Assembly (NCBI GenBank): GCA_035307765.1
Contig: DATGHU010000026.1
Location: 161,418 to 225,417 of the forward strand
Reading direction: 5' to 3'
Length of the DNA: 64,000 nt
Source of the DNA: a bacterium
GTDB lineage: Bacteria; Sysuimicrobiota; Sysuimicrobiia; Sysuimicrobiales; Segetimicrobiaceae
A program made the position numbers and the translations under genes. The notes under the pieces are model-generated. The model searched no databases. It was given only the letters and a program-made list of their open reading frames with translations, and was not told the origin of the DNA. Shown piece after piece: positions 32,693 to 49,517 of this stretch; the stretch's first letter is position 1; each line of letters opens with the position of its first letter.

Positions 32693-32979
32693 GCTAGCGG
32701 GGTCGCCCTTAGGATACATGGTGGGATTCCGCGGAGCCCCAGTGAGAACCGCAACGACCAGTCGAACAGGCCTAGTCCAGGTATTCCTCGATCTGCGCTA
32801 TGTTGGCGGCGGAGATTGCGTAACTAATGCGTCGAACCTAGTGGGTTCGAAGCCAAACGCCCCAGGGAACACCATGGTCAACTTCCACGTCGATGCGCTC
32901 ATATCAGAGCATCTGTCTAGGGATTGACATTGCTCGGAAACAGGAATGACCCAGAGCCTAGGCATCATTGAACGAAGGC
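32693..32979. other. intergenic boundary of high-GC and lower-GC segments
   Basis: The sequence becomes visibly AT-richer here. A 69-codon frame at 32718-32927 has a weak AGGA site and no recognisable product; it may be a decayed remnant. No terminal repeats, integrase gene or tRNA marks the junction. Confidence 0.4.
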
Positions 32980-33822
32980 TTAGAGCTGCGTGTGGTTTTC
33001 ACGCAAAAGGAAAATATCTTGGCGAGGAGTGCCTTTCGCGCCGCCGGAAACCCAGTCAATCATCTCAAAGCCCTTAGACAGTGTGTGTCGGACATATTCC
33101 TCTGGATGGAACGCTGTGCAAAGATTGCTCCCGGCATACGCCGGGCGTCTTATAACCATCTTGCCATCCATGAAGCGCTTCTTATCTTCCCCATTTAGTC
33201 GCCCAAGATAGCATTCACCATGGGTGGTAATTAAAAGGAGACCACCAGGTCTTAACACTCTTGAAAATTCACGCATCCAAGACAGTTGGTCCTCTTCTGG
33301 CAGATGAGTCAGAACAGATATCGCATAAATCACATCGAAGTATGAGGCTGGGTACATTAAAGGCGGCGTAGGCTGGGAGAGTGTGAATTGTGCAAACTTG
33401 AGGACTCTGTCACACCAGTCGACCAACATTGGATTTGAATCTGTACCATACAGGTCCGCTCGTGCAACCGACCAAAGATGCCGGATCACACGTCCGGCTC
33501 CGCATCCAAAGTCCAGGACTTTCCAACCACTACCTATATAGAACCCGTTCTCCGCAAGTGTACCTAAGATGTCTCTTGCTGAAAGCTCGCCACTCCCGAA
33601 CCACCATGATGGGTCACTCTTGCCCGCAACAGTGGTGCGAAGCCGCGGTGGCGGGAAAAGGATGCCGTCTGGTGCAATTTTGTCTCGACGAATAGTGCGC
33701 CAAAGATTATGTGGGGCATACTGTTCTAACAATAAGTAAAGCCTGTACGTTAATCTAAGGAGTCGAAGTTTCTCTATGACTCCCAATAGCCGATACAGAA
33801 TCTCAGGAGGTTCAGTACGCAT
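32980..33822 (-). CDS. class I SAM-dependent methyltransferase
   Basis: A 280-residue protein. The SAM-binding motif I is WKVLDFGCGAGRVIRHL (about residues 98-115), motif II is DLYGTDSNPMLVDWC, and the post-motif region is YFDVIYAISVLTHLPEEDQL and VLRPGGLLLITTHG. This is the Methyltransf_11/25 type found in glycan and O-antigen loci. The N-terminal 90 residues (basic, with LRLLRLTYRLYLLLEQY) are typical of a subgroup acting on lipid-linked or nucleotide-linked sugars. It is encoded convergently to rfbB-rfbD and divergently to the beta-barrel-like gene. Acceptor unknown. Confidence 0.8.
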   Translation of the reverse strand: MRTEPPEILYRLLGVIEKLRLLRLTYRLYLLLEQYAPHNLWRTIRRDKIAPDGILFPPPRLRTTVAGKSDPSWWFGSGELSARDILGTLAENGFYIGSGWKVLDFGCGAGRVIRHLWSVARADLYGTDSNPMLVDWCDRVLKFAQFTLSQPTPPLMYPASYFDVIYAISVLTHLPEEDQLSWMREFSRVLRPGGLLLITTHGECYLGRLNGEDKKRFMDGKMVIRRPAYAGSNLCTAFHPEEYVRHTLSKGFEMIDWVSGGAKGTPRQDIFLLRENHTQL

Positions 33823-34099
33823 AGTGGGTCCAAAACTATCTTAACGGAATCCCGGGAACCTCACTTCGAGCTTGGCTTAAAGGGTCCTGCTCGTCTAAGT
33901 TTGAAATGCCGCGGACATCTAATTTTGGCCCTGCCTCAGAAAACATTTCGGCAGTTCCTTAGGCGGAAATATCAACACCCATATCGAACCGTCTGGGTCA
34001 GTGCATCGTGGATAACATGCGCAATTCAAAAAGTGGCTCTCTCAGGCCCTCTATCATCCAGTGTTCCCATTTCGGCCAAGCCTGTACGAGGGGTGCACC

Positions 34100-35008
34100 G
34101 TGAGTATCAGGTGGAGTAGGATTCCCGGTTTTCTGCTTTTAGCAGTACTGCTCCTGACCCTAATAACGCCTGCTCGGGCAGCAGACCCCGGTGGTCTATG
34201 TTCGAAAATCCACCCTCTCATCAATGGCGGCTATAGCACCGTGCTAGGTTTCTATGCTGAAGGAGGGATTAGATGTCCATCTAGTAGATGGACCCTGCAA
34301 CTCGGCTGGCGTTGGACTCAACTTGAAGAAGCCACCAATCCGTTCATCGTCCTCACTTACGACACTCCTCTTAGCCCGGAGTGGCACTTATCGGTAACCG
34401 GAAGCCAACGCGAGCACCTGGGAGATTATGAAGTGAATCGGCTACCTGAAGCTAATCTTCTATGGGAGCCGGTTTCTCCCAAGTCGTTCATCATCCCAAC
34501 CATAGACTTTTCCGCCGGGTGGTTCGCCACTGTTCTACCTCTGGAAGCACAGACATCGCGCACAGGTACAGTACTGACCATTTCCACCCAACCGATCCAC
34601 ATATCACGAATAACACTGTCGGCAATTTACCAGTTAGGGGATTATTTTTATGGGACGGGAAAAAGCTCAAGCTACTGGCTAAGCGCGTTAAGTACCAACA
34701 TGCCACTCTCCCCTTCGATAGCAATTGGTCTATCGTATGTCCACCAGGAAGGATTTGGTGTAAGCCCCTTAGTATACGATTCTGTAAACTACGATAACTT
34801 TGCGTGGGCACAGTTTACCGATATGCTCACCCCGAAGGTAACCCTAACATTCGCAACACAATTCAATATAGCTGTCCCTGGGTATTCTGGCCCTGTAAGG
34901 GAATATACATTTTCCTATAACAAAGTATCGGAAGGCTGGTCCATTGGGGTTGGGTGGTATGTACCAACTAACCAGCCGTTCCTATTTGGCACTCTGCCGC
35001 AATTTTAG
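34100..35008 (+). CDS. exported beta-rich protein, probably outer-membrane
   Basis: The GTG start at 34100 has GAGGGG six bases upstream. The 302-residue product has a signal peptide (RIPGFLLLAVLLLTLITPARA, cleaved before ADPGG). The mature part alternates hydrophobic and polar residues (STVLGFYAEGG, WTLQLGWRWTQLEE, YWLSALSTNMPLSPSIAIGL). It ends in Phe, the C-terminal signature of outer-membrane barrels. About 10-12 strands are plausible. No family is recognised; a role in polysaccharide export or surface attachment is possible from context. It is the only plus-strand gene in the AT-richer cassette. Confidence 0.6.
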   Translation: MSIRWSRIPGFLLLAVLLLTLITPARAADPGGLCSKIHPLINGGYSTVLGFYAEGGIRCPSSRWTLQLGWRWTQLEEATNPFIVLTYDTPLSPEWHLSVTGSQREHLGDYEVNRLPEANLLWEPVSPKSFIIPTIDFSAGWFATVLPLEAQTSRTGTVLTISTQPIHISRITLSAIYQLGDYFYGTGKSSSYWLSALSTNMPLSPSIAIGLSYVHQEGFGVSPLVYDSVNYDNFAWAQFTDMLTPKVTLTFATQFNIAVPGYSGPVREYTFSYNKVSEGWSIGVGWYVPTNQPFLFGTLPQF

Positions 35009-35117
35009 GGAGTGTTATTCACCAACGGGTGTCAAGCGCATTCCGCCAGAACCACAAGGGCGGTTTAGGTGCCCCATCGAACAAGTCGTCTTAAAGTGCA
35101 GGCTTATGCTCTCGCCC

Positions 35118-37865
35118 TCAAGACCCGCGAAGCACGGGGAACAAAAATGATCGTGTCCCTTCGACAACCAACCATACAAGCGCTAACAGATTGACGAGGC
35201 TGCCGACGGTTATGAACCAATCGGAGTTAATCAAACCAATGAAGAATCGAGTCAGCATGTTATTCTGGTAGTAGAGCGCTGGCATCAAGAACCCAACCTG
35301 TGATGACGCTATGCCCAAGTCGCCAAAACAGGATACGAACGTTGTGAGCGTCAGGGTGATGATTATTGAGTAGTATGCCCACCGGTTGAGCGACACTCGG
35401 GCTACCACTATAAACGGTAAGGCCAATACGAAGTAGTGATCTGCAATACCGGTCCGCAGTAATAGTAGGGCAAGAATGCCTATGGCCACCAAGGTAAGGT
35501 ATCTGCCCTCTATTAAGATGCGGCGACTCCGTATGATGCCGAAACAAATGGAGAGAAACACAAGTAAGAAAAGTATGTCACTAACCTGAACGTACGTTAA
35601 GTGGCCGACCAGGAGGTTTGTTGATGGGAAGAAAAACCGCCCGGAACTTGAGAAACCTCCCGTGAACCTGCTTACAAGCGGCCAAAGATTCAGGGCTTGC
35701 AGAGATGCATAGAAGTAGGCTCCGACACGCGGATCAGTAGGATTTTGCGTCCTCATGCCTTGGAGTATGATGTTCAATGGCGCCGAGGGCCCAAGAGCTA
35801 GGGTGAAGGGGGCTAGAATCAAAAAACCCAGAATAATGCTCCACGAAATAGCGTAGACATTGATTTTTAGGGGGAATTTGCGCAAGAAGATTAGACTCAA
35901 TAGAAGAGCGGGAATGAGCAATTGCAACCTGGTAAAACTGGTCATCGCAATTGCCAACCAAGCGGCCACTTGTCGGTTTGTTTCACCAAACCAAATGGCT
36001 AAAAGTACGAATAAAAGGCTAATTGTGTGTGTCTCGCCCCAAACAGACATCACCAACCACACCGCAGGATTGAATAGGAAGAGAGATGTTGATAGTAAGC
36101 TCGACCGCCGACTCATGCCGCAGCGGGACAAAATGAGGTAGATTAAGAACGAATCGGCGAGACCAGCTATGACATTGGAAGTTTTTATAAGAACATCCAA
36201 TTGGAAGGTGCCTAGACGAAGTCCTGATGGATCTGCAAGGAAGAGTCGATAAATCCAACCAATACCTGTAAATATGTAAGCCATCAAGGGGCCATAGGGA
36301 AAATCCGAAGGGGCGAAAGGGACCCCTCCCCAGGCATCAGCCGGCGTCACCAGGCTTGAGATTTGGTAGACACTAGTTAAGCCGTATCGTGTTCCCACGT
36401 ATGCCCAGATCTTTTCACCGATAAGATCATATGCATGATATCCCAATGGAAACAGCAACGCGTTGATCAATATGTATGCGGCCACGATGCTACCGAAACC
36501 AACCAAAATGGGCCATGGCCCTAACAATGTTTGCTTACCCATCGACCATCCATTCCGTGATAGAAGGGTTAGTTTCCTCGTCAGGGTACGCAGACGCAGG
36601 ACTGTTGCGACAATTGTTGCGAAGCAGCCCAGCACAAGAAGTACCATGACAGTTGCCGTAGCCCGGCGATCTTGCACTCTCATTGCGGGCCAGATTTGAG
36701 ATGGCACTGTAAGACTGTAATCTTCGATCTGAGCAATAGCCAATCCATTCTTAGATGACCCAGCCAAGGTGAGGGCCAACGGCAACTTAAGAAAGAGATC
36801 TGGGGCTCTCATTGTGGTGATCCCAGTCGCAATCACCGTTGGAAGAAGGAAGACCTTTCCTATGCTTTCGCTTTTACCGCCAATTATTTTCCAGTTCTCA
36901 AACCCCTTTTCAAAATCACCGTTCGAGAGGAGATTTAGATTCAAAACAGGTGGTTTTTTCAAGAAAAGATCTGTCATCATATACTGACTCTGTTCACTAC
37001 CGGCACCGAGGATGATTTGAGCGAAAGTGGCAGCATTTGGTGCTGTCGCAAGAAACCTTTTTGGGGTCCACTTTCCCAATTCTGTTGGAGGTTGCCACTC
37101 GTTTGCGTGACCTATTCTCTCGCCCTTATTGTCAAGCCAATCAACAACAATCTTGTACCAACCAGGGCCGGAAACCCGCCTAACTTGCCCGCCGAATATG
37201 TAGTTTTTCCCGCCTTCCACTTGCATAAACCTTGAATAGAGTTCCTGGTGGTTCGCCTCGTCCGGTCCACCCACGAGCAAAACCATGTTGCTCCCGGGCG
37301 AAGGTCTTCCCAGAGGTCGGATCTGACCTTGAATCGTCCCGCGCTCCCTATCAACAGAGAGCTCAACATGGTAGGCTGAGCGAAGTTGGTACGTCCCCAG
37401 AACAGTCCGATCTAAAATTGTATCTCTCAGCATGACCTGTGCTGTGATAAGGTTTTGGGGAGATGATTCGAACGTGATGGAGTAGCCGGCTTCCTTCCTT
37501 GGGCTCCATATTCTGATTTCGAGTGGTACTGTCCCAGGTTGACTATCAAGGACTCGAACATTCATTGCGGCTCGGTAATTCAGTTCGGAACTAACCAAAT
37601 GTACGGTTGGGTGCGAAGTCGGTACTGATATGAGTTTGAGGTGGTTTTGTGAGACTTCAACTATTCCATCTTGGAAATTGCCGGCCTTCTGAACCTCATA
37701 CACTAGATTAGGATCGAACCCTTTGTAGATCGCTTCAATATCCGGACGGCTCCACATGCCTACCGGCGTCAGTATGAGACAGAGCATGCATAACGCAATA
37801 ATTGGCACGGCGCAATATGCGGCCTTCCCTATTAAGGTCCTTAATTTCCCATGGGAAAGGCGCAA
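35118..37865 (-). CDS. GT-C membrane protein with N-terminal lectin-like ectodomain
   Basis: A 915-residue protein. After one transmembrane helix (VPIIALCMLCLILTPVGMW) comes about 380 residues of extracytoplasmic beta-rich sequence. It includes LLSNGDFEKGFENWKIIGG, the opening of CBM-like jelly rolls. A second helix and about ten more follow from residue 400 on. The motif SVWGETHTISLLFVLLAIWF matches the conserved W-G-E-x-H segment of GT-C mannosyl/glucosyltransferases such as ALG6/PIG-M-like enzymes. It probably transfers a sugar from a lipid-phosphate donor on the outer face of the membrane. It is the last gene of a minus-strand operon of eight, 31 bp after the GT2 gene. Confidence 0.65.
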   Translation of the reverse strand: MRLSHGKLRTLIGKAAYCAVPIIALCMLCLILTPVGMWSRPDIEAIYKGFDPNLVYEVQKAGNFQDGIVEVSQNHLKLISVPTSHPTVHLVSSELNYRAAMNVRVLDSQPGTVPLEIRIWSPRKEAGYSITFESSPQNLITAQVMLRDTILDRTVLGTYQLRSAYHVELSVDRERGTIQGQIRPLGRPSPGSNMVLLVGGPDEANHQELYSRFMQVEGGKNYIFGGQVRRVSGPGWYKIVVDWLDNKGERIGHANEWQPPTELGKWTPKRFLATAPNAATFAQIILGAGSEQSQYMMTDLFLKKPPVLNLNLLSNGDFEKGFENWKIIGGKSESIGKVFLLPTVIATGITTMRAPDLFLKLPLALTLAGSSKNGLAIAQIEDYSLTVPSQIWPAMRVQDRRATATVMVLLVLGCFATIVATVLRLRTLTRKLTLLSRNGWSMGKQTLLGPWPILVGFGSIVAAYILINALLFPLGYHAYDLIGEKIWAYVGTRYGLTSVYQISSLVTPADAWGGVPFAPSDFPYGPLMAYIFTGIGWIYRLFLADPSGLRLGTFQLDVLIKTSNVIAGLADSFLIYLILSRCGMSRRSSLLSTSLFLFNPAVWLVMSVWGETHTISLLFVLLAIWFGETNRQVAAWLAIAMTSFTRLQLLIPALLLSLIFLRKFPLKINVYAISWSIILGFLILAPFTLALGPSAPLNIILQGMRTQNPTDPRVGAYFYASLQALNLWPLVSRFTGGFSSSGRFFFPSTNLLVGHLTYVQVSDILFLLVFLSICFGIIRSRRILIEGRYLTLVAIGILALLLLRTGIADHYFVLALPFIVVARVSLNRWAYYSIIITLTLTTFVSCFGDLGIASSQVGFLMPALYYQNNMLTRFFIGLINSDWFITVGSLVNLLALVWLVVEGTRSFLFPVLRGS

Positions 37866-37896
37866 ATAGGCTCTCCTACCCCAGAATTGCTACCTG

Positions 37897-39051
37897 TCAT
37901 CTCTCTACCTTTCTGCAAATTTTAGTTCTCCTGACACTCCCGAGTATTCGCCACAATCGGAAGAAATGCCATGGTGCATCAAAGAGCCCGAAGCCGTCAC
38001 TTGCAAATACTCTGCGGTCTGAGACGACACGAAGCCTCTGCGTCGCATTACGTTTTTGGCATATCTCGCCGACATTATACGCAATACAGCGAAAAGCAAT
38101 GAATACATTAATTAGGTACTCCTGATTGCGGGTCAACAAGGACAGCATTCCACCCTTAATCAGCGCAAAGACCAAATATATCGGGAGAGCGTGCAAAAGA
38201 TTGTGATAAGACAAGCATTTGAGCATCGCTCGAATATAATGTTGGACACCCATTTTGAATTTTGCCGGATTAACCCCGCCCAATGTCGACGAGAAATGAT
38301 GATATACAACAGACCCAGGAATGCATTTTACATGATATCCAGCCAATCGCACTCTCCAAGAAAGATCTAAATCCTCGCCGTAGGCGAACATCTCGTCGTC
38401 AAAGCCTCCAGTTCGTTCGAACAACTCTCGGCGAATAGCCAATGCTGCGCCCGAGCCGTAGAAAGGTTCAATGATCCCCCCGACGGGGAAAGACTCCTCA
38501 GCATCACCAAATCCTAATTCACCACCACCTGTCCAGAGTTTCAAATAACCTCCGACACCATTAAGCAAATGAGTCCCGAAGAAAACTAACTTGCTGCTTG
38601 CAATTCCAATGTCCGGCCTCTCGCGGAGAGCATCTATCAGAGGGAAAAGCCATCCTTCTTTGACTTCTGTATCATTGTTCAAGAAGACCATGAACCGCCC
38701 TCTTGCCAACGGCACCGCAGCATTGTAGCCTCGACTGAATCCGAGATTTACGTCATAGCTAATGACGCGTACCTGAGGAAATTCCGTCTTTACTAAGTCA
38801 ACAGAGCCATCATCGCTGCCGTTGTCAATAAGCAACAGCTCCACGTGGGGACATACATCCCGGATGAGACTGGCAAAACAGGGCTTTAAAAATCGCCTGC
38901 CCCTCCAGTTAAGTACAAGTACCGAAACTAGGGGGATTGTTCCCCCCCAAGGAGCGTGTTTGCAGTTTGCTACTTCTGATGTCATTACGTCGACACGCGC
39001 ATACAGGTTATTCAGTCTCCTGATAAGAAGGGTCATATGAGGATGTAACAT
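37897..39051 (-). CDS. GT2-family glycosyltransferase (rhamnosyltransferase-like)
   Basis: The 384-residue protein has the GT-A fold motifs VSVLVLNWRGRRFLKPCFAS, LLLIDNGSDDGSVDLV and GYNAAVPLARGRFMVFLNND (metal-binding D-x-D-like NNDT). The late acidic motif is FAYGEDLDLSWRVRLAGY. This matches WbbL/RfbF-type enzymes that add rhamnose or a related deoxysugar. The extra N-terminal 35 residues may be over-annotated; the fold begins near residue 36. C-terminal hydrophobic segments suggest membrane association. The dTDP-sugar made by RfbB/RfbD is a plausible donor (inference). Confidence 0.8.
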   Translation of the reverse strand: MLHPHMTLLIRRLNNLYARVDVMTSEVANCKHAPWGGTIPLVSVLVLNWRGRRFLKPCFASLIRDVCPHVELLLIDNGSDDGSVDLVKTEFPQVRVISYDVNLGFSRGYNAAVPLARGRFMVFLNNDTEVKEGWLFPLIDALRERPDIGIASSKLVFFGTHLLNGVGGYLKLWTGGGELGFGDAEESFPVGGIIEPFYGSGAALAIRRELFERTGGFDDEMFAYGEDLDLSWRVRLAGYHVKCIPGSVVYHHFSSTLGGVNPAKFKMGVQHYIRAMLKCLSYHNLLHALPIYLVFALIKGGMLSLLTRNQEYLINVFIAFRCIAYNVGEICQKRNATQRLRVVSDRRVFASDGFGLFDAPWHFFRLWRILGSVRRTKICRKVER

Positions 39052-39152
39052 GAAGTTTAGCTACCCTGCCGTCCTCGGCCAAATCCTTGTTCGATTATTC
39101 GACCTGTCCTGGGACAAAACCCATGCCGCGCGCGCTTGAGTAGGGGGACCTC

Positions 39153-40418
39153 TCAGCCACTCTTCGCAACAAGCTGTCTCGGGAAGAAGATCCCCCACGA
39201 CACAATAATAAGTGCGCAAATACCCATCGTTGCCATCAAGTACGCTATATCATGAATGCTACCTCGAAAAACGAGCAGTAGAATTGGGAACACGAGGGTC
39301 ATGATTCCTACCGGCCGAAGGAACCCACGCTTCTCTATCCCCAGCTGATAATACATCCCCAGGAGCGCCAACTCGTATCCGAGCATGCCCACCCCAAGAA
39401 GACCGAGAATCGAAGATGCTCCTACGTAGCCGTCCCCAAACATGATCCTTGTGACCATGTTAGGTGCCATAAAGTAAAGAAGAACAGTCATGCCCCCAAG
39501 TGATCCACCATAGACTAGACATCGCATCAGAATAATCCTGCCGTCCTCTTTCATCGAGTGCCGCGAGGCCATCTCCGGCAACAGCACCATAGGCAGCGCT
39601 GCTGTTAGGTACAGAATAACCTTGCTCCCCGTTGAAGCAGCAGCATACAATCCAGCTTCATACGGAGGGAATAATATTCTGACGAACACTACATCGAGTT
39701 GTGTCAACAAAGTAAAGCAACTAGTGAGTACAGCATAAGGCCCTAGCGATCTAAGTACATTGATCAGTTGTGGAATGTGCTCCCCCTCCTCGAATGGCGA
39801 CCACGCGGGTGCGGCGAGTATTGTCAACACAAGAGCGGCGAGGGCCCCTAAGCTCACTCCTGCAACAGCACCGTTAAGTCCCCACCCAAGCGAAACAAAG
39901 ATCACACTTGCGACAAACTTGAATATACCTTCCGCGGCTAAGCTCACCGCAAGCCTTACAAAGCGTCTCGCCCCCTGCAGCATGCCTCGCAAGACCGGCA
40001 ACGAGGCCCATGAAATTAGCGCCGTGGCAGAAAGAACTACCGGCCCCACCGATTCAAACTTGAGAGCCCCCGCTATCCAATAACTCATTAGCGTAACCAC
40101 AATTAGAGAAAGAACTCCAATCATTAGAGCGCCCCTTAAACTCTCATACAGGAGCCCCCTGAGAACGCCTCCCTCTCCTTTCCCGTAGATGCGGGCAACA
40201 AAGGCGGATAGTCCCATCTGAACCGTGTTTACCGGAATGGTGAGAACGACTAGCAATCCTAGGAGTGCGCTTAATCCTCCGTAGCCGACTGGCCCGAGAA
40301 GTCGGCTCATCGCGACATGATAAAGCCAGTTGACCCCGTTAAGCACAACAGTTCCAAGAACGAGAAATATACTCCGCTCCAGGATTCGACCGTCTCCTGA
40401 TTGAGAAATGGGCTTCAT
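39153..40418 (-). CDS. Wzx-like flippase (second copy)
   Basis: From ATG 40418 the protein has 421 residues and about 12 transmembrane helices. The N-terminal motif SRLLGPVGYGGLSALLGLLV is the classic flippase opening (L-G-P-x-x-Y/F-G). An in-frame ATG at 40643 would add 75 residues with no hydrophobic or conserved pattern, so I reject it. It would export a lipid-linked oligosaccharide. Having its own flippase suggests the AT-richer cassette makes a separate glycan from the main locus. No Wzy-type polymerase is evident within the cassette. Confidence 0.75.
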   Translation of the reverse strand: MKPISQSGDGRILERSIFLVLGTVVLNGVNWLYHVAMSRLLGPVGYGGLSALLGLLVVLTIPVNTVQMGLSAFVARIYGKGEGGVLRGLLYESLRGALMIGVLSLIVVTLMSYWIAGALKFESVGPVVLSATALISWASLPVLRGMLQGARRFVRLAVSLAAEGIFKFVASVIFVSLGWGLNGAVAGVSLGALAALVLTILAAPAWSPFEEGEHIPQLINVLRSLGPYAVLTSCFTLLTQLDVVFVRILFPPYEAGLYAAASTGSKVILYLTAALPMVLLPEMASRHSMKEDGRIILMRCLVYGGSLGGMTVLLYFMAPNMVTRIMFGDGYVGASSILGLLGVGMLGYELALLGMYYQLGIEKRGFLRPVGIMTLVFPILLLVFRGSIHDIAYLMATMGICALIIVSWGIFFPRQLVAKSG

Positions 40419-40697
40419 CGTCGACAAACCATCGGTCCTCGCGAAGGTTGCGAAGGTAAAAGGGCCCGGGCGCGGAGGTTTCCCGCTCCGATACGTCGTG
40501 AAAGAAGAGAAAGGTGAACGACTGTGAGGCCTGTCCGAAGTTGCGTGTCTTGCCGGGCCTGTTGAGTGTTGAGGATACAACGTGGAACATAGGTCGCAAA
40601 CGCGTCGATGTTTGAGCGGGGCATCTTCATGGAACGTTCTCACCCGCTACGAATTGTGGTCTTGCAATCCATGCAGCGTGCTGCGTAGAGCATTTTC

Positions 40698-41591
40698 CTA
40701 ATCTTCGTCTCTTCTGAACAAAATGTTGTAGGTACCAATTATTCTAGGCATCCCCTTGGCAACGTCAAAGGGAGTCATCCCTCTCTCAATAACGGACCCA
40801 CTTCGGAAACCCAACTTCACTAGCTGCAGTGCCAGATCACATGGCCTTGCACCCGCCCGTCGAAGATTTGCTGGATCAAACTCCATGATGGCCCGCATCG
40901 ATGGATTCCTTCGGCTCAACTCAACCATCCCTTCTAGAACTTCCGTCTCACTCCCCTCAACATCTATTTTAACGACGTTAACAGGAGGCCATCCCTCCAA
41001 GCGAAAAAAATCATCAAGGCTAAGACTCGCAATTTCAATGGACTTCCCTTGGGGGGGTGATGACGATAGCCAGTTGTGATCTGGCTCTTCGTGAATCGTG
41101 AGATATCGAGAACCTGTCTCACTGGACGCCGCCTTATTGACTGCGGTAACATTCCAACAACTATTCGCTCTAATATTGCGCACCAGATAGCAATAGTTTG
41201 ATCGGAGGGGTTCGAATGAAAACACACGCCCTGTCATCCCTACTAACCGCGAGCTTAGAAGTGTGTAGTACCCACAAAACGCGCCCACATCAACGAATGT
41301 GTCGCCCTCCGAAAGTAAACTCCTGACTACAGCAGTCACTCCCTCTTCATAAACGCCAGCGGCGTAAGTACGTGCTCGCGGAAGGCACGGTGGCACCATC
41401 ATCTCCAGTCCGTCTTGAAGTGAGATCCGCATTTCGTAGGAGGGTGGCGGTAACAGCTTGTTTGTTGCTGCGAGCATCGCATGTTGAAAAGGACCAAGGA
41501 ATCGCACTCGCTTGCCTAGTTGAAAAAGCCGAACCCCTTGCTTCCAGCAGATTTTGGCCACCAGCTCGCGCACCGATCCCACCTGTGTCAT
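40698..41591 (-). CDS. FkbM-family methyltransferase
   Basis: The 297-residue protein has the FkbM pattern: a variable N-terminal 85 residues, then DTFVDVGAFCGYYTLLSSRL for SAM binding, GRVFSFEPLRSNYCYLVRNI with the acidic SAM-ribose residue, and VNVVKIDVEGSETEVLEGM, the most diagnostic block. FkbM proteins O-methylate sugars and polyketides. It starts 4 bases inside the end of the upstream GT4 gene (ATGA), so the two are coupled. It is the second methyltransferase in the cassette. Confidence 0.85.
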   Translation of the reverse strand: MTQVGSVRELVAKICWKQGVRLFQLGKRVRFLGPFQHAMLAATNKLLPPPSYEMRISLQDGLEMMVPPCLPRARTYAAGVYEEGVTAVVRSLLSEGDTFVDVGAFCGYYTLLSSRLVGMTGRVFSFEPLRSNYCYLVRNIRANSCWNVTAVNKAASSETGSRYLTIHEEPDHNWLSSSPPQGKSIEIASLSLDDFFRLEGWPPVNVVKIDVEGSETEVLEGMVELSRRNPSMRAIMEFDPANLRRAGARPCDLALQLVKLGFRSGSVIERGMTPFDVAKGMPRIIGTYNILFRRDED

Positions 41592-42727
41592 GACCTCTTG
41601 CCAACCTCACCTAGAGGATTTGCCAATTTGGCCAAATTTTCGAACTGGCGCCCAACCTCGGCCCACCCAAAGCGTTTCGCAAATACCAATCCGTTGTCGG
41701 AAAGTTCATGATGCAACTCATCAGATCGGAGTAGCCGAACAATACTCGTGGCCAAACCGTCGACATCGCCAAAAACATATCGGAGTCCATTCCAACCATC
41801 CTTAACGACGCTCTCAGGAACCCCGCTACTAGCAATAACAGGAACACCACATGCATTAGCCTCAAGCACGACAACTCCGAACCCTTCTCGGCGAGAAGGA
41901 AGGACAAGCAGGCGGCTCTTGCATAGCAGTGATCTCTTCTCTTCTTCATTAATGTTCGTCAGGAATCGAGTACATTGGTCGAGACCGAGTTCGTCGACCA
42001 AAAGATGCAGGGTTCTCTCGTATGCCAAATCAATTCTTCGACCTACAATCACAAGTTGCACATCTTCGCACTGCTTTCTCACAAGCGGAAGAGCCTTTAT
42101 AAGAGTGTGAATGCCCTTGTACCGTCGAAAGTTACTCACACAAAGGATCAATTGTCCATCGGGGTGGGCAACGCGCTTACTGGTGAACCATTCTTCGGGG
42201 ATGCTGGCGGGAATTACTCGGATTCGTGCAATTGGAAGACCCAATTCGCAAATCAATTGCGAGCGTATCTCTTCAGATGGAGCTCTTAACCAAGTACTCC
42301 GATAGAACTTCGCAACCAGTCGCTCAACGAAGGACAACAAAATGGCCGCGAGTCGCCCGTGGCTGTCGATCAACAAATCGCTTGTTGGCTGATGCCATGC
42401 TGCCACAATCGGTTTCCTTACATAGAGGGGGGACAGATAGGGAAGTCGCCCGCCTCCGATAACATCTTCATAGACGAGATCGATGTCAAGCTGGTGGTGC
42501 TTATAGAATCTATATGCTTTGAATGGCAATAGAAAGCCCGGTCCCATGCGAAGTACCATGACCCCGCTAATCAGTTCAGCAGTAGGAAGAGTCGGATGGC
42601 CGCAACAAATGTATGTGGCTTCATGGCCGTGACCGGCCACATATCTGGCCCATTCCCAGGCCTGTATATCTCCCCCTCCAGCACTCGGATGCCTTGAATC
42701 TCTACCAACAAGGAAAAGAAATCGCAT
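41588..42727 (-). CDS. GT4-family glycosyltransferase
   Basis: The start at 42727 overlaps the gmhA stop (TAATG). The 379-residue protein opens MRFLFLVGRDSRHPSAGGGD with the Gly-rich acceptor/phosphate loop. The donor site is LILCVSNFRRYKGIHTLIKA and REGFGVVVLEANACGVPVI (E-x7-E). It is a retaining GT-B transferase. Directly after gmhA and the heptose kinase gene, it may use a heptose donor; this is inference from position only. Confidence 0.85.
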   Translation of the reverse strand: MRFLFLVGRDSRHPSAGGGDIQAWEWARYVAGHGHEATYICCGHPTLPTAELISGVMVLRMGPGFLLPFKAYRFYKHHQLDIDLVYEDVIGGGRLPYLSPLYVRKPIVAAWHQPTSDLLIDSHGRLAAILLSFVERLVAKFYRSTWLRAPSEEIRSQLICELGLPIARIRVIPASIPEEWFTSKRVAHPDGQLILCVSNFRRYKGIHTLIKALPLVRKQCEDVQLVIVGRRIDLAYERTLHLLVDELGLDQCTRFLTNINEEEKRSLLCKSRLLVLPSRREGFGVVVLEANACGVPVIASSGVPESVVKDGWNGLRYVFGDVDGLATSIVRLLRSDELHHELSDNGLVFAKRFGWAEVGRQFENLAKLANPLGEVGKRS

Positions 42728-43347
42728 TATCTTACCGAGATCCCTATAGATTGCGAGGACGCCCGAACGATGATATCCTCCACTAACCCGCATAGAATAT
42801 GTCCCACAATTAAATGCGCTTCTTGAATCCGCTGGGTGTTATTCGAAGGAACACAGATCGCATAATCCGTCAAGTTCCTTAGATTTCCTCGCAAGCCTGT
42901 AAGTGCCATCGGAACAATCGAAAGTTGCTTAGCCCTCTGAAATGCCGCAACGACATTTTTGGACTCGCCACTTGTACTGATGCCGACAAGAATATCTCCC
43001 GGACGTCCCTGGGCAACAAGTTGCCGCGCAAACACTTTTCGGTAACCGTAGTCGTTCGCAATAGCGGTTATAACTGATGTATCCGCTGTAAGGGACAAAC
43101 CAGCGAGAGATTTGCGATCTTTTTGGAAACGACCAACTAGTTCCCCCGCAAGGTGCTGGCACGTCGCGGCGGACCCGCCATTACCACAGAACATTATCTT
43201 GTTGCCGCTCTCCAAAGCTTGAGCCCAGACTACAGCAATGCGCATAAGATCCTGTATCCGCCCAGTTAAGTGTCGCCCTATCCTAGATATCTCTGCAATC
43301 TGCTCTTCGAGTGAATCAGCGTGGGGATCATTGGGGATCCCGGCCAT
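42727..43347 (-). CDS. gmhA: phosphoheptose isomerase
   Basis: A 206-residue SIS-domain protein of normal GmhA length. The motifs MFCGNGGSAATCQHLAGELV, TADTSVITAIANDYGYRKVF and DILVGISTSGESKNVVAAF are characteristic. The C-terminal EAHLIVGHILCGLVE carries the catalytic His. It converts sedoheptulose 7-phosphate to D-glycero-D-manno-heptose 7-phosphate. It overlaps the end of the kinase gene by 20 bases. With that kinase it starts the GDP- or ADP-heptose route; phosphatase and nucleotidyltransferase genes are not seen in the window. Confidence 0.9.
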   Translation of the reverse strand: MAGIPNDPHADSLEEQIAEISRIGRHLTGRIQDLMRIAVVWAQALESGNKIMFCGNGGSAATCQHLAGELVGRFQKDRKSLAGLSLTADTSVITAIANDYGYRKVFARQLVAQGRPGDILVGISTSGESKNVVAAFQRAKQLSIVPMALTGLRGNLRNLTDYAICVPSNNTQRIQEAHLIVGHILCGLVEDIIVRASSQSIGISVR

Positions 43348-44353
43348 TGTTAACCTCCCAAACAGTCAACCCATCCGGATCGAACGAGAAAGGAATTACG
43401 TTCAAATCAAACCTTGCTAGGTGAGATGCTAGCTCATGTTTGCCGGACTTCGGGCAGAAGAAAAGCATATGACCTCCGCCTCCCGCGCCAAGAAGCTTGC
43501 CGCCGAGCGCGCCGTGTTTGCGAGCTTCTTCATATACCTCATCGATCCACGGACTCGTGATCAGTGCACTAAAACGCTTCTTCAGTTCCCACCCCGCATG
43601 CAGCATCTCGCCCATTTCATCAATCTTTCCCCGAAGCAACGCGCGCTTCATTTCATGGGCGAGTTCCTTTGTTCGCGCCAAAGCCTCAATCAAGTTCTCA
43701 TCCCCTGAGATATAATGGCTGGTCTGGTCCCTCAGAATCTCAGATGAGAGTCTGGTTCTTCCGACGAAACAAAGTAGCAACCGATAGTGAAGCTCATGCA
43801 CGATGTCTTCCCTAATCCGAAGGGGGTTGATCACGACCTCACTGCCACCAAACTCCATAAAGTTGAACCCTCCGAATATTGCCGAATATTGATCTTGACG
43901 TCCCCCTTCCCTGCCGAGATCTACGCGTTCTATTTCGTACGCGGCCTCCGCAAGCTCATGCGGCGACATATGAGAATGCAGCCATCGCGAGAAAACCCCA
44001 AGAACTGCCACTACGTGGGCCGAAGATGATCCGAGGCCCGATCCCCAAAGGGCGTCTGAATGTGATAGTAAAGTGAAGCCCCGTTTTACCCCCAACTTGA
44101 CAACCACCGCTTTCGCCAGGTCGAGGGTCCCGGAATATGCAATTCCGCTCCCGATGTTTCCGCTAACCACTGAGGCTTCGTCCAGATCATGCATCCGGAA
44201 GGAGTTGTCGCTTCCAGGCTCCAAACATGCGTAGGCATGCTTAGCAATGGTGACATTTAATACCGAACCCCCGTGTTGCTCTGGATAGGGGGAAACATCA
44301 GTACCGCCACCCGCCAAGGATATACGAAGAGGTGCTCTAGCACGCAACAACAC
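43328..44353 (-). CDS. hddA: GHMP kinase, D-glycero-D-manno-heptose 7-phosphate kinase-like
   Basis: The GTG at 44353 is preferred because the conserved N-terminus RARAPLRISLAGGGTDVSPY begins four codons later and the resulting length (341) is typical. A longer frame to 44473 adds an unrelated Cys/Ser-rich stretch. The GHMP ATP site is ALWGSGLGSSSAHVVAVLGV and the C-terminal motif is KLLGAGGGGHMLFF. HddA phosphorylates heptose 7-phosphate at C1 in the GDP-D-glycero-alpha-D-manno-heptose route; a fucokinase-type activity is a less likely alternative. It is followed by and overlaps gmhA. Confidence 0.8.
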   Translation of the reverse strand: MLLRARAPLRISLAGGGTDVSPYPEQHGGSVLNVTIAKHAYACLEPGSDNSFRMHDLDEASVVSGNIGSGIAYSGTLDLAKAVVVKLGVKRGFTLLSHSDALWGSGLGSSSAHVVAVLGVFSRWLHSHMSPHELAEAAYEIERVDLGREGGRQDQYSAIFGGFNFMEFGGSEVVINPLRIREDIVHELHYRLLLCFVGRTRLSSEILRDQTSHYISGDENLIEALARTKELAHEMKRALLRGKIDEMGEMLHAGWELKKRFSALITSPWIDEVYEEARKHGALGGKLLGAGGGGHMLFFCPKSGKHELASHLARFDLNVIPFSFDPDGLTVWEVNNGRDPQ

Positions 44354-44550
44354 TATACTCGTACCTTGGAGGCGGTTTCTATCTCGCGGTCTAACCTGCG
44401 AATTTGCTGATAGGCCATCGCATACAGAGTAGCAGCTGATGTGCATAAGCAAAATCTGGACGATTGTAAACAAGCGCGGAGCGCCGTTCGGCTAAACTCC
44501 GATCCTTTGGCATTTTCAACGCGACTGATTTAGTCCGGGTTTTTTACAGC

Positions 44551-45627
44551 TCAACTTGGCCTGCTCGCCATTTCTGGCTCAGGTGCCTCTTCGGATGAAC
44601 TTGATAGACGCGCGGGCCCCGGAGTTATATATGTCATAATGTGCCAGATCATAGCGAACCCTACTATTAATCCCTGCAATATGCTACGGCTTGCTCCCTT
44701 AGACTGTCCCACTCGGCGGCGGAAAGTAATTGGAATCTCGATGATAGCAAGCTTTCTAGCCAGTGCAATGAGCATCATATGAAGCGAGAAATGACTTCCT
44801 CCAACAACGAGATCGGGAAGAATCCGCTCGAGTGCCCCCCGGCGGATCACTCTGAAGGTACAACCCACGTCGCTTAGGCGAGCCGCTCCCAGGAACTGCG
44901 AGTTCCAGAATCTGAGGCGCAACAAGGTACTAATGACAACATTCCCCCAAATGAAGAAATGATCCATCTGAGAATCTTGCTCCGCCAAACCAGGGACAAC
45001 CCTGGTCCCTATGACCATGTCTGCTTGATTGATATAAGCTAAAAACTTCTGCAAATCGGCGGCTGAAAAGGTCCCGTCCCCCTCGGTCAGGACAATGACC
45101 TCAACACCTGGGACTTTTAGAGCTTCTTCAAGCCCCCTAATACAGGCATAGCCATATCCTTGGCGGGTCTCTTCGACAACGCTTGCGCCCGCAGCCTCGG
45201 CCTGGGCTGACGTTCTATCACGGCTATTATTGTCAATTACTATAACTTTTTCCACCTCGGGACGAACTTTGAAATCTCGGACTGCGTCACCAATGGATGG
45301 TGCATCATCGTACGCAGTCATCGCCACTACGACTTGGGTTGAACCGGATTCGGCCCAAGCGTCGATTGGTTGCCCGCACCGATGGTTATGATTTAGGACT
45401 TGAGCTTTTCTCATCAATCGCGACTTTGTAATTATAACGACACTAATGGCCAGCAAACTAAAAATACCCCAGAAAAAGAAGTCTGCAATGAAAATCTTTG
45501 CACGATCCAAGAATACTAGCCAATCGGGAGTGCGGGGATGGATGAAGTATAGGAACGTCAAAAAGGGATGCAAGAGTGCCCCAATTAGCGCCAGCATGAC
45601 TACAAGGAAGGCTACATAAACCAACAT
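44551..45627 (-). CDS. membrane-anchored GT2 glycosyltransferase
   Basis: The 358-residue protein has two N-terminal transmembrane helices (MLVYVAFLVVMLALIGALL and IADFFFWGIFSLLAISVVII), then a GT-A domain. The domain shows VVVAMTAYDDAPSIGDAV, VIVIDNNSRDRTSAQAEAAG and VIVLTEGDGTFSAADLQKFL, an E-G-D variant of the dolichol-phosphate-mannose-synthase D-A-D-G-x-x motif. A late RRRVGQSKGASRSILQGL also matches that group. It probably glycosylates polyprenyl phosphate, which would supply the GT-C enzyme at 35-38 kb. It is the first gene of the minus-strand cassette operon. Confidence 0.75.
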   Translation of the reverse strand: MLVYVAFLVVMLALIGALLHPFLTFLYFIHPRTPDWLVFLDRAKIFIADFFFWGIFSLLAISVVIITKSRLMRKAQVLNHNHRCGQPIDAWAESGSTQVVVAMTAYDDAPSIGDAVRDFKVRPEVEKVIVIDNNSRDRTSAQAEAAGASVVEETRQGYGYACIRGLEEALKVPGVEVIVLTEGDGTFSAADLQKFLAYINQADMVIGTRVVPGLAEQDSQMDHFFIWGNVVISTLLRLRFWNSQFLGAARLSDVGCTFRVIRRGALERILPDLVVGGSHFSLHMMLIALARKLAIIEIPITFRRRVGQSKGASRSILQGLIVGFAMIWHIMTYITPGPARLSSSSEEAPEPEMASRPS

Positions 45628-46176
45628 GGTCCCTATTTCCCCAGACTCCTTTATTCATTTCGGAGGGCGGAGGTCTGGATCGGACCCAGATATGATCCTT
45701 CCCCGCCCTCGATGTCAGGTGTTTCCATGTGTGATGAGCAATTCCTCTCGACTATCCAATGTGGAGTCACCTTGCAGAAGGTGACAATGTACTTTGTATA
45801 TTTTGCGCTTCGGGGACTCCGTTTGAGTAGGATAGAGGGTCTTTGGTGGATCTCTGGAAGACCGTGCGTTGAGCCTTCAATTGGCTGGGCCAAACCCTTT
45901 CACCAGGCGATCATCTATCGACAGGCGCAAGCTAGCGCCATTCGAGCAACAAACAAAACATATCCGCATTAGCTGCCCGCATGCGGCGGTCTCGTTATCA
46001 CGTCTATAGTATTCGACAAATCTGGGTGCCTGCAAGGGTCGAGTTCGGGCAGACAAATAACAGCCTGAACTAATTAGGAAGGCGATCGGGCTTCCGGCGC
46101 GCATTTGTTTGGGAGGAGTTGACCTGCGTCTCCAAAAACAGCAACGTGGCCGCCTGAGGCCTTTGGGAGGTGATTA
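45628..46176. other. intergenic region between divergent units
   Basis: About 550 bp with no supported gene; an 86-codon plus-strand frame at 45712 has no ribosome site. It must hold the promoter of the minus-strand cassette and of the small peptide gene. GTCTATAGTATTCGA at about 46009 loosely resembles the first block of the bipartite motif at 21.25 and 27.9 kb, and TATAGT there could act as a -10 element. Confidence 0.4.
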
Positions 46177-46353
46177 ATGTTCAGAGGATTCGCAATTCTG
46201 TGTTTTGTGGCAACAATGCTGCTCGTGAACTTTCCGCTAACGGTCAGTGCAGGACAGGATGGACCGGGGCAGTCAATTAGAATCGGGGGCATTCACGCGC
46301 ATGAAGGTGTTCCCCCGCTTAAGCCGTTCGGTCAAGACGGGCCTGGGCAGTAG
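46177..46353 (+). CDS. small secreted peptide, candidate signalling precursor
   Basis: A 58-codon gene with an excellent GGGAGGTGAT site four to five bases before the ATG. The product has a signal peptide (MFRGFAILCFVATMLLVNFP, then LTVSAG). The mature segment is about 33 residues in which the heptapeptide GQDGPGQ occurs twice: once just after the likely cleavage site and once as the exact C-terminus. Between them lies IRIGGIHAHEGVPPLKPF. There is no Cys and no recognisable family. It lies 154 bp upstream of an HTH-TPR regulator on the same strand. This is the arrangement of a peptide pheromone precursor and its receptor; the function is inferred. Confidence 0.65.
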   Translation: MFRGFAILCFVATMLLVNFPLTVSAGQDGPGQSIRIGGIHAHEGVPPLKPFGQDGPGQ

Positions 46354-46506
46354 TCGGGGTTGTTTGGTTAGTCAGCATTTAGCCCGGCATGACAGTACTG
46401 ATTAAACTACACCAGGCGGCCATCCCCTCCACTTAGATGGATGCTGGGACCAAATAAGGGCACTCATCCCAAAAGTGCAGATATACGTAGAGGGACACCT
46501 ATTCCG

Positions 46507-47898
46507 ATGTCAACCCTTGGGAAGCGAATCAAACGGGCACGGCAGGCAGTAGGGCTGACCCAAGAAGAGTTGGGGGGCCCAGAGCTGACTAAGGGATTCA
46601 TTAGCTCGCTTGAGCACGACCGAACCAGGCCGTCAGCGGCGACGCTAGTGCGCCTAGCGGCGCGGTTGGGTCGTCGCGTCTCCTACTTTCTTAACGGCGA
46701 AAGCGTCGTGTCGGAGAAGGTCCTGGCTCTACTTGAGAACCAAGGGCAAGGTGAGCTCGCCCGGGGTGAGTACAACTCTGCGCGTGATGCATTCGGCGAG
46801 CTCGCCGAGTTGGCAACGGCGTGCCGGAGTGAAGTGATGAAGGCACGGGCGGAACTGGGGCTTGGGGAGACCGAGCTTGGCGCAGGACGGCATTGCGAAG
46901 CGCGCCCGTACTTCGACAACGCGCTCAAAGCAGGACGAATGACAAAGGATCCTCTGACTGAGTGCCGGGCGCTGTATGGGCTAGGCCTGGTGGAATATCA
47001 CCAAAGCGACTTCTTGCAGGCGGTGACGCTGCACGAGGAAGCATTGGTGGTGCTGACCAGGTTGCGCGAGCCTGAGACGTTGCTGGAGGGCGAAATCCAC
47101 CTATATCTCGGTACCGCACTCATGCGTCTCGGGCGCATGGAGGAGGCAGTATGGGCATTCACGCGAGCGCGTGATCTGTTCAGCGAACCGGCGCAGCCCC
47201 AATGGGCTGGACAGGTGCTAACGGCTTTGGGCGAGATCTCCGCGAAGAATGGTGATTGGAAAGGTGCGTTGGAGTTGTACGAGCGTGCACTAGTGCTCTT
47301 TCGGCAGTGCGATGAAGGTAGCGCGGCAGCGCACGTACGAAGTGACCTGGGCCTCCTGCTCCTCGAAAGAGGTCGCCCGCAAGAGGCACTGGAACACTTC
47401 GGAGCAGCCCTCACCATTAGGGAACGGCTTAAGGACAGAGCGGGCGAGTGCCGGGTTTTGACCGAGCTAGCGCGGTGCTACTTCGTCTGCGGGGATTTGG
47501 TGCGAGCCGAGGAATACGCAAACCGGGCGAGCGTTAGCAGTCGGGAGATCGGTCAGCCGGAAGCAGAAACTCGGGCGCGGATCGTCCTCGGGATGGTCGC
47601 AGCAGATGCGGGAAACATTGAGGAGGCGGAAAGGGAGATTCTGGCTGCCCAACAGCAGTCTCGCATGTTGGGAATGATCCCAGACCTCGTGGCAACCTGC
47701 TGCGAGCTTGGGTGGCTGGCAAAATGGCGAGGAAGATATAAGGAGGCCGAGGCGAACTATGAACAAGCCTACGAAGCACTTAAGGCGGTAAAGCCAAACG
47801 ACACCGTTGCCGTGCTCCATTTGGCCGATCTAGCAGGCCTCCGGGCCAAGTTTGCCCGAGCACAAGATGAAAGGCACCATTCCCCGCAAGGCGGATAA
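46507..47898 (+). CDS. HTH-XRE/TPR transcriptional regulator (RRNPP-like)
   Basis: From ATG 46507 (an earlier ATG at 46441 adds 22 residues of no conserved type) the protein has 463 residues. Residues 1-70 are an XRE helix-turn-helix: GKRIKRARQAVGLTQEELGG, then FISSLEHDRTRPSAATLVRL. The rest, from about residue 80 on, is eight or nine tetratricopeptide repeats (ARAELGLGETELGAGRHCEA, ALYGLGLVEYHQSDFLQAV, VLTELARCYFVCGDLVRAEE and so on). HTH plus TPR is the plan of the RRNPP quorum-sensing receptors (PlcR, NprR, PrgX, Rgg), whose TPRs bind re-imported peptides. The secreted peptide encoded upstream is the obvious candidate ligand. The target could include the adjacent glycan cassette. Confidence 0.8.
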   Translation: MSTLGKRIKRARQAVGLTQEELGGPELTKGFISSLEHDRTRPSAATLVRLAARLGRRVSYFLNGESVVSEKVLALLENQGQGELARGEYNSARDAFGELAELATACRSEVMKARAELGLGETELGAGRHCEARPYFDNALKAGRMTKDPLTECRALYGLGLVEYHQSDFLQAVTLHEEALVVLTRLREPETLLEGEIHLYLGTALMRLGRMEEAVWAFTRARDLFSEPAQPQWAGQVLTALGEISAKNGDWKGALELYERALVLFRQCDEGSAAAHVRSDLGLLLLERGRPQEALEHFGAALTIRERLKDRAGECRVLTELARCYFVCGDLVRAEEYANRASVSSREIGQPEAETRARIVLGMVAADAGNIEEAEREILAAQQQSRMLGMIPDLVATCCELGWLAKWRGRYKEAEANYEQAYEALKAVKPNDTVAVLHLADLAGLRAKFARAQDERHHSPQGG

Positions 47899-48152: not shown

Positions 48153-48183
48153 GTAACCCGCAGCACAAGATCGCGGGGGTTAC
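48153..48183. terminator. inverted repeat between convergent genes
   Basis: GTAACCCGC and GCGGGGGTTAC form a strong stem with a 9-13 base loop, overlapping the stop codon of the S41 peptidase gene. There is no T-tract, so termination may need Rho or be inefficient. It sits between the converging regulator and peptidase genes. Confidence 0.4.
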
Positions 48184-49517
48184 GGGGCGTGTTTTAGGGC
48201 TTCGGCGCTTGCCGTCCGCAGCGCCGCCTGCAGCTGCGGGTCCTCGCCGCGCTCCATATCTGCAACGGTCAGTGTGGCCACCGCGTCGGGGCTGACCCCG
48301 ACGTTTTCGACCTCCGCGCCGCCTGGGGTGGTGATCCGGGCGACCGTCACGGACATCCCCCCTTCGGGGAGCGCCACCTCGATCGCCGCGCCCAACGCCC
48401 CCGCCGTCTTTTCGCCGATAATCGTGGCCCGCCCGTGCTCTTTCAGCGCCGCTGCCAACAACTCGGATGCGGACGCACTCCCCTGGTCGACCAGCACGAC
48501 CAACGGGGTCTCGGGAAACGACGGAGCGCCCAGGGTCCGAAGCACGCTCGGGCCGCTGCCGTGTTCAGCGATGCGGGCCAGATCCGTCCGGGGCGGCAGG
48601 AACAGTCCGCCCACGCGCGCCGCTTCGCTGACGAGCCCGCCGGGATCCCCCCGCAGATCGAGAATGATGGACCGCACCGGCCCCTGCGCGGCCAGGGCTT
48701 CCAACGCCCCGCCCAGCACCCCGCCGGATCCGGCGGAGAAGAGGAACAGCCGCGCGTAGGCGATCCCCGGCGAGATGAACGTCGCGTAGGCGGGGATCGA
48801 TGGGATCGGGGCGCGCACCACCGAGGTCTTCACCACCTGATCTCCCCGCTGCAGCACCAGATCCACGGTCGAGCCGATCGCGCCACGAATCGCGGTGCTC
48901 GCCTCCTCGGCGGCCACGTTCTTGAGGGGGGTGCTTCCCGCTTGCACGATTCGGTCGAACCGCTTGAGGCCCGCTCGCTCCGCCGGCGACCCGGGCAGCA
49001 CATCCTCCACGAAGATCCACGCCGTCCCGCTGTCGTCCTTTCGAGACGAGATGCGGACGCCGATCCCCGTAATCCCCGGGTCCCCAATCAATTGCTGACG
49101 GCCCTCCTGGAACTGCTGCGGGGGGAGGAAATACGTGTGGCTGTCGTGCAGCGACATAAGCATCGCCTGGGTCGCCGCGTAGGCCAGCGGCGTCGCCGGC
49201 ACCGCCCCCGACCCCGCCGCCTGCCGGAACTCCGCCACAAACCCGGACTCTGCCTTCGCCAGCGCCGTACCGACCGGGATATCCGGGAGCGCGGCGGCGT
49301 CCAGGTGGGTCCCCTGCCGCAGGATATCGATCGCGACATTCAAAGCCACCACCGGGTCCACAGGATCGACATAGTCCCGCTGGAGCACCCGGAGGGCGGC
49401 CACGACGAGCAACCCGTCGGCCGCCTCGGCAGGACGGACGACCCCCATGGAACCGACGGCCAGGACGACCGCGAGGATCAGAACCATCCACTGCCTGCGC
49501 CGTATCCACGCCGTCAT
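48180..49517 (-). CDS. S41-family (C-terminal processing) peptidase
   Basis: The 445-residue protein has a signal peptide (WMVLILAVVLAVGSMGVVRP), an N-terminal helical part, a PDZ domain (GITGIGVRISSRKDDSG to EDVLPGSPAERAGLKRFDRI) and the S41 catalytic core. SIILDLRGDPGGLVSEAARV precedes the nucleophile in VLVDQGSASASELLAAAL and the general-base Lys in IIGEKTAGALGA. It would cleave exported proteins near their C-termini in the periplasm or at the surface. It is the last gene in its direction, 297 bp after the ureohydrolase gene. Confidence 0.85.
   Translation of the reverse strand: MTAWIRRRQWMVLILAVVLAVGSMGVVRPAEAADGLLVVAALRVLQRDYVDPVDPVVALNVAIDILRQGTHLDAAALPDIPVGTALAKAESGFVAEFRQAAGSGAVPATPLAYAATQAMLMSLHDSHTYFLPPQQFQEGRQQLIGDPGITGIGVRISSRKDDSGTAWIFVEDVLPGSPAERAGLKRFDRIVQAGSTPLKNVAAEEASTAIRGAIGSTVDLVLQRGDQVVKTSVVRAPIPSIPAYATFISPGIAYARLFLFSAGSGGVLGGALEALAAQGPVRSIILDLRGDPGGLVSEAARVGGLFLPPRTDLARIAEHGSGPSVLRTLGAPSFPETPLVVLVDQGSASASELLAAALKEHGRATIIGEKTAGALGAAIEVALPEGGMSVTVARITTPGGAEVENVGVSPDAVATLTVADMERGEDPQLQAALRTASAEALKHAP

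Follow-up and report, generated by a model that had tools for sequence, protein, structure and literature searches.

Intracellular receptors of peptide pheromones have so far been described almost only in Bacillota, their phages and plasmids. The closest described systems are those of the RRNPPA family (Rap, Rgg, NprR, PlcR, PrgX, and AimR), found in Bacillota and mobile elements, in which a small Sec-exported propeptide carrying the pheromone at its C-terminus is encoded next to a cytoplasmic TPR receptor, usually with an N-terminal HTH (PMC9765709, PMC10075063, PMC11343458). Both propeptides with multiple identical pheromone copies and 'eavesdroppers', receptors that have no peptide of their own, have been described in this family (PMC9765709), and tandem copies of the mature peptide per propeptide occur in Rap3T-Phr3T and Rap105-Phr105, whose pheromones are duplicated (PMC11343458). 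The published RRNPP_detector survey was confined to Firmicutes and viruses. No earlier description of the pairs reported here was found in the open-licence literature searched, and a term search of the paper naming Sysuimicrobiota gave neither 'quorum' nor 'pheromone' (PMC11604079).

The window analysed, a stretch of 64,000 nucleotides, was taken from a genome that belongs beside Candidatus Segetimicrobium in the Segetimicrobiaceae of Sysuimicrobiota (CSP1-3), an uncultivated phylum. It contains a propeptide gene (46177..46353, + strand) coding for 58 aa, with a Sec signal peptide (residues 1-25) followed by 33 residues. The initial annotation had described a near-perfect ribosome site and a signal peptide, and both were found again: the ribosome binding site region GGGAGGTGATTA (46165..46176, + strand) lies 5' of the ORF, and an AxA-type site ends the signal peptide. 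The translation reads MFRGFAILCFVATMLLVNFPLTVSA before the likely AxA-type cleavage point and GQDGPGQSIRIGGIHAHEGVPPLKPFGQDGPGQ after it. As also described there, the segment of about 33 residues lies between two copies of GQDGPGQ. The first copy (46252..46272, + strand; G000:C26:207669-207689 on the source contig) abuts the putative signal-peptidase site VSA/G (the slash marking the cut), and the second (46330..46350, + strand; G000:C26:207747-207767) is the exact C-terminus; each is proposed as a mature peptide. The codons of copy 1 are GGA CAG GAT GGA CCG GGG CAG and those of copy 2 are GGT CAA GAC GGG CCT GGG CAG, with 5 of 7 positions differing, all synonymously, and no amino-acid change. 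Across 12 genomes of the family, the degenerate DNA pattern for GQDGPGQ matched nothing but this gene and a single homologue in genome G002 (L065:11690-11863 on G002:C113; 54% identical), two matches in each, and the motif is therefore not a chance one. No sigma-70 promoter was found.

The HTH-TPR regulator gene (46507..47898, + strand; 463 aa), which codes for the proposed peptide receptor and transcription factor, follows downstream; its strand and its domains, an XRE-type HTH (PF01381) and TPR families, were verified as initially annotated. Homologues align from the ATG at 46507, whereas the longest ORF opens further upstream, at 46441; the distance from the propeptide stop to this conserved start is 153 nt. 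The size of 463 aa with HTH_3 and TPRs is within the RRNPPA receptor format (about 250-500 aa, TPRs, usually an N-terminal HTH). The AlphaFold2 model (pLDDT 92, pTM 0.84) has an N-terminal helix-turn-helix and then a long TPR superhelix. Among the PDB fold matches, the TPR domains of LGN/Pins came first, LGN being peptide-binding, and Rap with Phr* (6t46) and the phage Phi3T Rap with its pheromone (8rtc) came lower. Rap chains matched the regulator by profile and by fold, with generic TPR proteins scoring above RRNPP receptors in both. The fold of Rap3T aligns with that of the window regulator (8rtc), but Rap proteins have no HTH and act on proteins. In NCBIfam, the TPR part matched best to the AfsR/NsdA-type TPR regulators of Streptomyces (NF053617, NF053720), with scores under the curated cut-offs; these families differ in not being defined by an adjacent peptide pheromone.

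A scan of the genome contigs with the single regulator as query gave no match, whereas a profile of the regulator searched against 43 genomes of the order gave 86 homologues, not all of them full-length, distributed over 35 of these. A same-strand gene for an exported small peptide with a Gly/Asp-rich C-terminal motif lay just upstream of 44 of the 86, the motif being repeated 2-5 times in 19. The inspected first screen (ribosome site and export signal) yielded 41 of these, and relaxed limits added three: L202, L198 with APELPGEN present twice, and L043, in which GDDNGPGAVYGLPPLVPQ, exact or with one residue changed, occurs five times. Export signals were called from hydropathy, charge and AxA sites and not by a dedicated predictor. 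The motifs tend to track the regulator clades: one set comprises AGDIGPGS, AGDTWPGGG, AGDVGPGQNG, AGDSLPGGS, and GDDPPDSD, and others are AGHGDGELLNGGW and AGHGGGELL, ADGDNGSGG, and GDDAGGSH, with GDSLPGGS and GHGDGELLNGGW among the candidate peptides of relatives. Most members have a conserved C-terminal motif of 7-10 aa and some have longer units (about 5-10 aa being the RRNPPA norm for mature peptides), and the proposed mature peptide often begins directly at AxA/G and ends at the stop codon. Compared with Rap3T-Phr3T and Rap105-Phr105, the Sysuimicrobiota propeptides reach five near-identical copies and units of up to 18 residues.

When two clades without peptides were set aside, 40 of the remaining 54 regulators passed a single strict criterion. 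Among the controls it was passed by 6 of 138 genes, namely 4 of the 105 neighbours and 2 of the 33 genes from elsewhere in the window. The two clades were excluded after the screen had been seen, so the unselected figure is 40 of 78. C-terminal repeats of at least 6 aa occurred in the peptides of 18 regulators and in no control peptide.

Peptide presence was clustered on the regulator tree, with 12 changes against 28 in shuffles. The window regulator falls on a longer branch in a Ku-adjacent clade (support 100/99); none of the seven further clade members in the tree has a peptide gene. Its closest relatives (45-55% identity), one of them a paralogue in the same genome, lie beside a Ku gene and are likewise peptide-free. 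The position of the peptide gene is taken by a gene for a secreted cupredoxin-like protein (about 146 aa) in four Ku-clade tree members and in a partial one (L063, L034, L035, L225, and the partial L051). Adjacent peptide genes are present in the sister clade L066-L068, so the pair in the window has either been kept or been regained. The GQDGPGQ gene of G002 (L065) is an orphan with no adjoining regulator. The proposal of an RRNPP-type pair accordingly found support in its wider part, with recurrence in most regulator clades and in a second phylum and mostly purifying selection, but not among the closest relatives, nor for the regulator-free G002 peptide. The initial annotation had looked to small ORFs upstream of homologous regulators for support and to regulators lacking them for refutation, and the answer was divided: exported peptides, 19 of them with repeated motifs, precede 44 of 86 and occur in most other clades, but the nearest, Ku-adjacent homologues have none.

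Selection was read from the propeptides themselves. Between neighbouring motif copies in 18 propeptides, 111 synonymous nucleotides differed against 13 amino-acid-changing codons, a replacement count that is biased low because the copy boundaries were drawn by amino-acid identity. Most of the changing codons lay where GHGDGELL-type units have ragged ends. The synonymous count shows that the putative peptide copies are old and held constant. Purifying selection on homologous peptides, which had been named beforehand as a check, was mostly seen, as dN/dS between orthologs was 0.16-0.66 for pairs with usable dS and thus below 0.7, except in one near-identical pair (four differences). Between the window and G002 propeptides, synonymous sites were saturated and dN was 0.41.

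An inverted repeat flanks the propeptide gene on both sides, with a 5' arm GTGGCCGCCTG (46146..46156, + strand) just 5' of the ribosome site and a 3' arm CAGGCGGCCAT (46413..46423, + strand) between the propeptide and regulator genes. The repeat had p 0.01 against shuffles and its arms pair in the minimum-energy fold, the overall stability of which was no greater than that of shuffles. An inverted repeat of 10-20 bp around the peptide gene was found at p <= 0.01 in 21 of 39 Sysuimicrobiota loci (about 0.4 expected), including the window, L065, L066, L067, L049, and L044. The 5' arm ends 20-41 nt upstream of the start codon, apart from one locus where the distance is 76 nt, and the stop codon is followed after 18-101 nt by the 3' arm. 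Direct repeats were far less common, with 6 of 47 loci reaching p <= 0.05. RNAduplex energies over whole flanks were uninformative and a stem-score test was used instead. The arms are lineage-specific, with a mean own-arm pairing of 35.9 against 22.7 with the arms of other clades, a contrast that is inflated since the loci were chosen for their own score. Predicted folds close both the G002 orphan gene and the window gene. Arm changes compatible with G-U pairing dominate in L043, L065, L068, and L072, and A-C-compatible changes dominate in L048-L050. The repeat could be read as a pair of protein-binding sites on DNA, but it is probably an RNA stem, which is favoured by the position, the constant orientation and the lineage-specific matching of the arms. 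No Rfam match was found near the peptide gene. A shared protein operator was rejected, as no common DNA motif was found in the upstream regions of the window pair, the G002 orphan and the Ku-clade.

The layout was also found in a second phylum. Four profile matches with such a peptide in named genomes were titled Chloroflexi. The regulator family was present in 8 of 177 genomes of that Chloroflexota class, and all 8 regulators (L104, L107, L115, L100, L230, L231, L232, and L233) were preceded by a peptide with an export signal and a two-cysteine C-terminus. The motifs were GPCLPDPYGC, GPCPPADFGC, GGPCLPSDVGDC, GPCWGGDIGC, GPRPPCVPGWGC, GPCPPPDAGGC, CDPHGSPGLC, and CGTNSGGGGFC. An AxA signal-peptidase cut alone, as in AAA/GPCLPDPYGC and AYA/CGTNSGGGGFC, would free most of them as 10-12-mers.

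Regarding the genomic surroundings, a low-GC block of minus-strand polysaccharide genes (window 32000-46000; about 0.50 against 0.63-0.76 around) ends beside the pair, which is on the opposite strand. The block is consistent with transferred DNA, and the initial placement of the pair at the edge of a glycan cassette was correct. The further suggestion that the pair could control this cassette was rejected as unsupported, because the genes flanking the pair vary from lineage to lineage. The convergent neighbour of the pair codes for an exported PDZ-S41 C-terminal-processing peptidase (48180..49517, - strand) with a paralogue (59%) elsewhere in the same genome, and this enzyme could possibly be the maturation protease of the propeptide. 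By sequence inspection only, patatin-like genes adjoin GHGDGELL-group pairs and quinone oxidoreductase-like genes adjoin GPGQNG-group pairs. The patatin-like phospholipase genes, named in the same way, lie downstream of L055, L056, L058, and L081 and upstream of L065. Neither a conserved target gene nor a conserved operator emerged across the pairs. A phage or mobile origin was rejected, no homologue having been found in viral contigs or phage records.

The gene pair is real, recurring and selected, and the best reading of these results is that it works like the RRNPP family. At the level of sequence this reading is supported by adjacency, the export signal, the repeated and selected motif, the predicted HTH-TPR fold and the many oligopeptide-binding proteins; TPR superhelices bind many ligands, which counts against it. 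The core idea, a peptide pheromone paired with an HTH-TPR receptor, is one that we infer with good support. The window pair is quite probably a member of phylum-wide RRNPP-like peptide signalling modules that operate by export, cleavage and re-import. The small gene would be translated from its strong ribosome site and its product exported by Sec, signal peptidase would cut after the AxA-type site, and further proteolysis would free a short Gly/Asp-rich peptide, here GQDGPGQ, two per precursor. The peptide would then be re-imported by oligopeptide ABC transporters and bind to the cytoplasmic HTH protein, inside its TPR superhelix, thereby altering the DNA binding of this protein. Cleavage, re-import, binding, autoregulation and targets are what we infer. 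SBP_bac_5 oligopeptide-binding proteins were present in all 43 genomes, and every Segetimicrobiaceae genome, the source included, has 35 or more of them.

An Omp85 homologue (one) was found in 19 of the 21 genomes tested, including the source genome. Sysuimicrobiota cells therefore probably have an outer membrane, Sec export may stop in the periplasm, and the model is least secure at its extracellular step, so that control by cell density, as first suggested, is only one possibility. This Omp85 homologue and the very many oligopeptide-binding proteins would suit a variant of the best explanation with the same molecular steps, in which a periplasmic peptide is re-imported by its own cell and serves as an export-import timer or sensor of envelope state, reading Sec, protease and uptake activity and not population density. 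Such a sensor is possible, though hardly the expected outcome, as porins could let 7-10-residue peptides through and the diversity of motifs between lineages resembles strain specificity. Chloroflexota, which have the same layout, are usually regarded as single-membrane.

Other explanations depart further from signalling by this pair. It is unlikely that the window pair is decayed or secondary, with the regulator a duplicate of the Ku-adjacent peptide-free one and GQDGPGQ acting on that other regulator or on none. The placement of the regulator on its longer branch in the Ku-adjacent clade and the orphan state of the G002 homologue would fit such decay, but both motif copies are kept despite synonymous change, the peptide-regulator distance is standard, the inverted repeat encloses the gene, and the sister clade has adjacent peptides. 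The exported peptide might be an effector, bacteriocin-like or structural, whose gene is merely regulated by the HTH-TPR protein; short Gly-rich secreted peptides adjoin a regulator, repeats would raise the dose, and the two-cysteine Chloroflexota peptides could form disulfide rings. This is quite improbable, since the conserved units, 7-18 residues long, lack amphipathic character and are mostly neutral or acidic, genes for immunity, dedicated transport or modification were not seen to recur beside the pairs, and the association with a TPR-type sensor holds in two phyla. A role of the small ORF as a leader or attenuator, the RNA mattering more than the product, would account for the inverted repeat enclosing the gene at many loci and for the predicted RNA folds that close it. 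It is most improbable, as the repeat copies are identical in amino acids and synonymously diverged, every member has an export signal, and dN/dS is mostly well below 1.

The RRNPP-like reading thus extends to other phyla than RRNPPA, namely Sysuimicrobiota and Chloroflexota, with differences from that family: the TPRs are near-canonical and common ancestry is not demonstrated, the peptides are Gly/Asp-rich or two-Cys, an inverted repeat surrounds the peptide gene, and Sysuimicrobiota have a probable outer membrane. On balance we lean towards a peptide-communication superfamily outside Bacillota, in which HTH-TPR receptors would read exported peptides in the probably diderm Sysuimicrobiota (linear, Gly/Asp-rich and often multi-copy) and in Chloroflexota (with two cysteines and possibly a disulfide ring), many Sysuimicrobiota precursor mRNAs being closed by a lineage-specific stem. 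The lineage-specific peptides with their recurring two-gene layout suggest a form of peptide communication that has hitherto been investigated almost exclusively in Firmicutes. Candidate peptide-receptor pairs are provided in two other phyla, one of which is uncultivated and abundant in some soils, and dozens of specific pairs can be tested in vitro without culturing the organism. The finding bears on the origin of peptide communication, whether ancient or arisen more than once, and on how such communication could work across an outer membrane.
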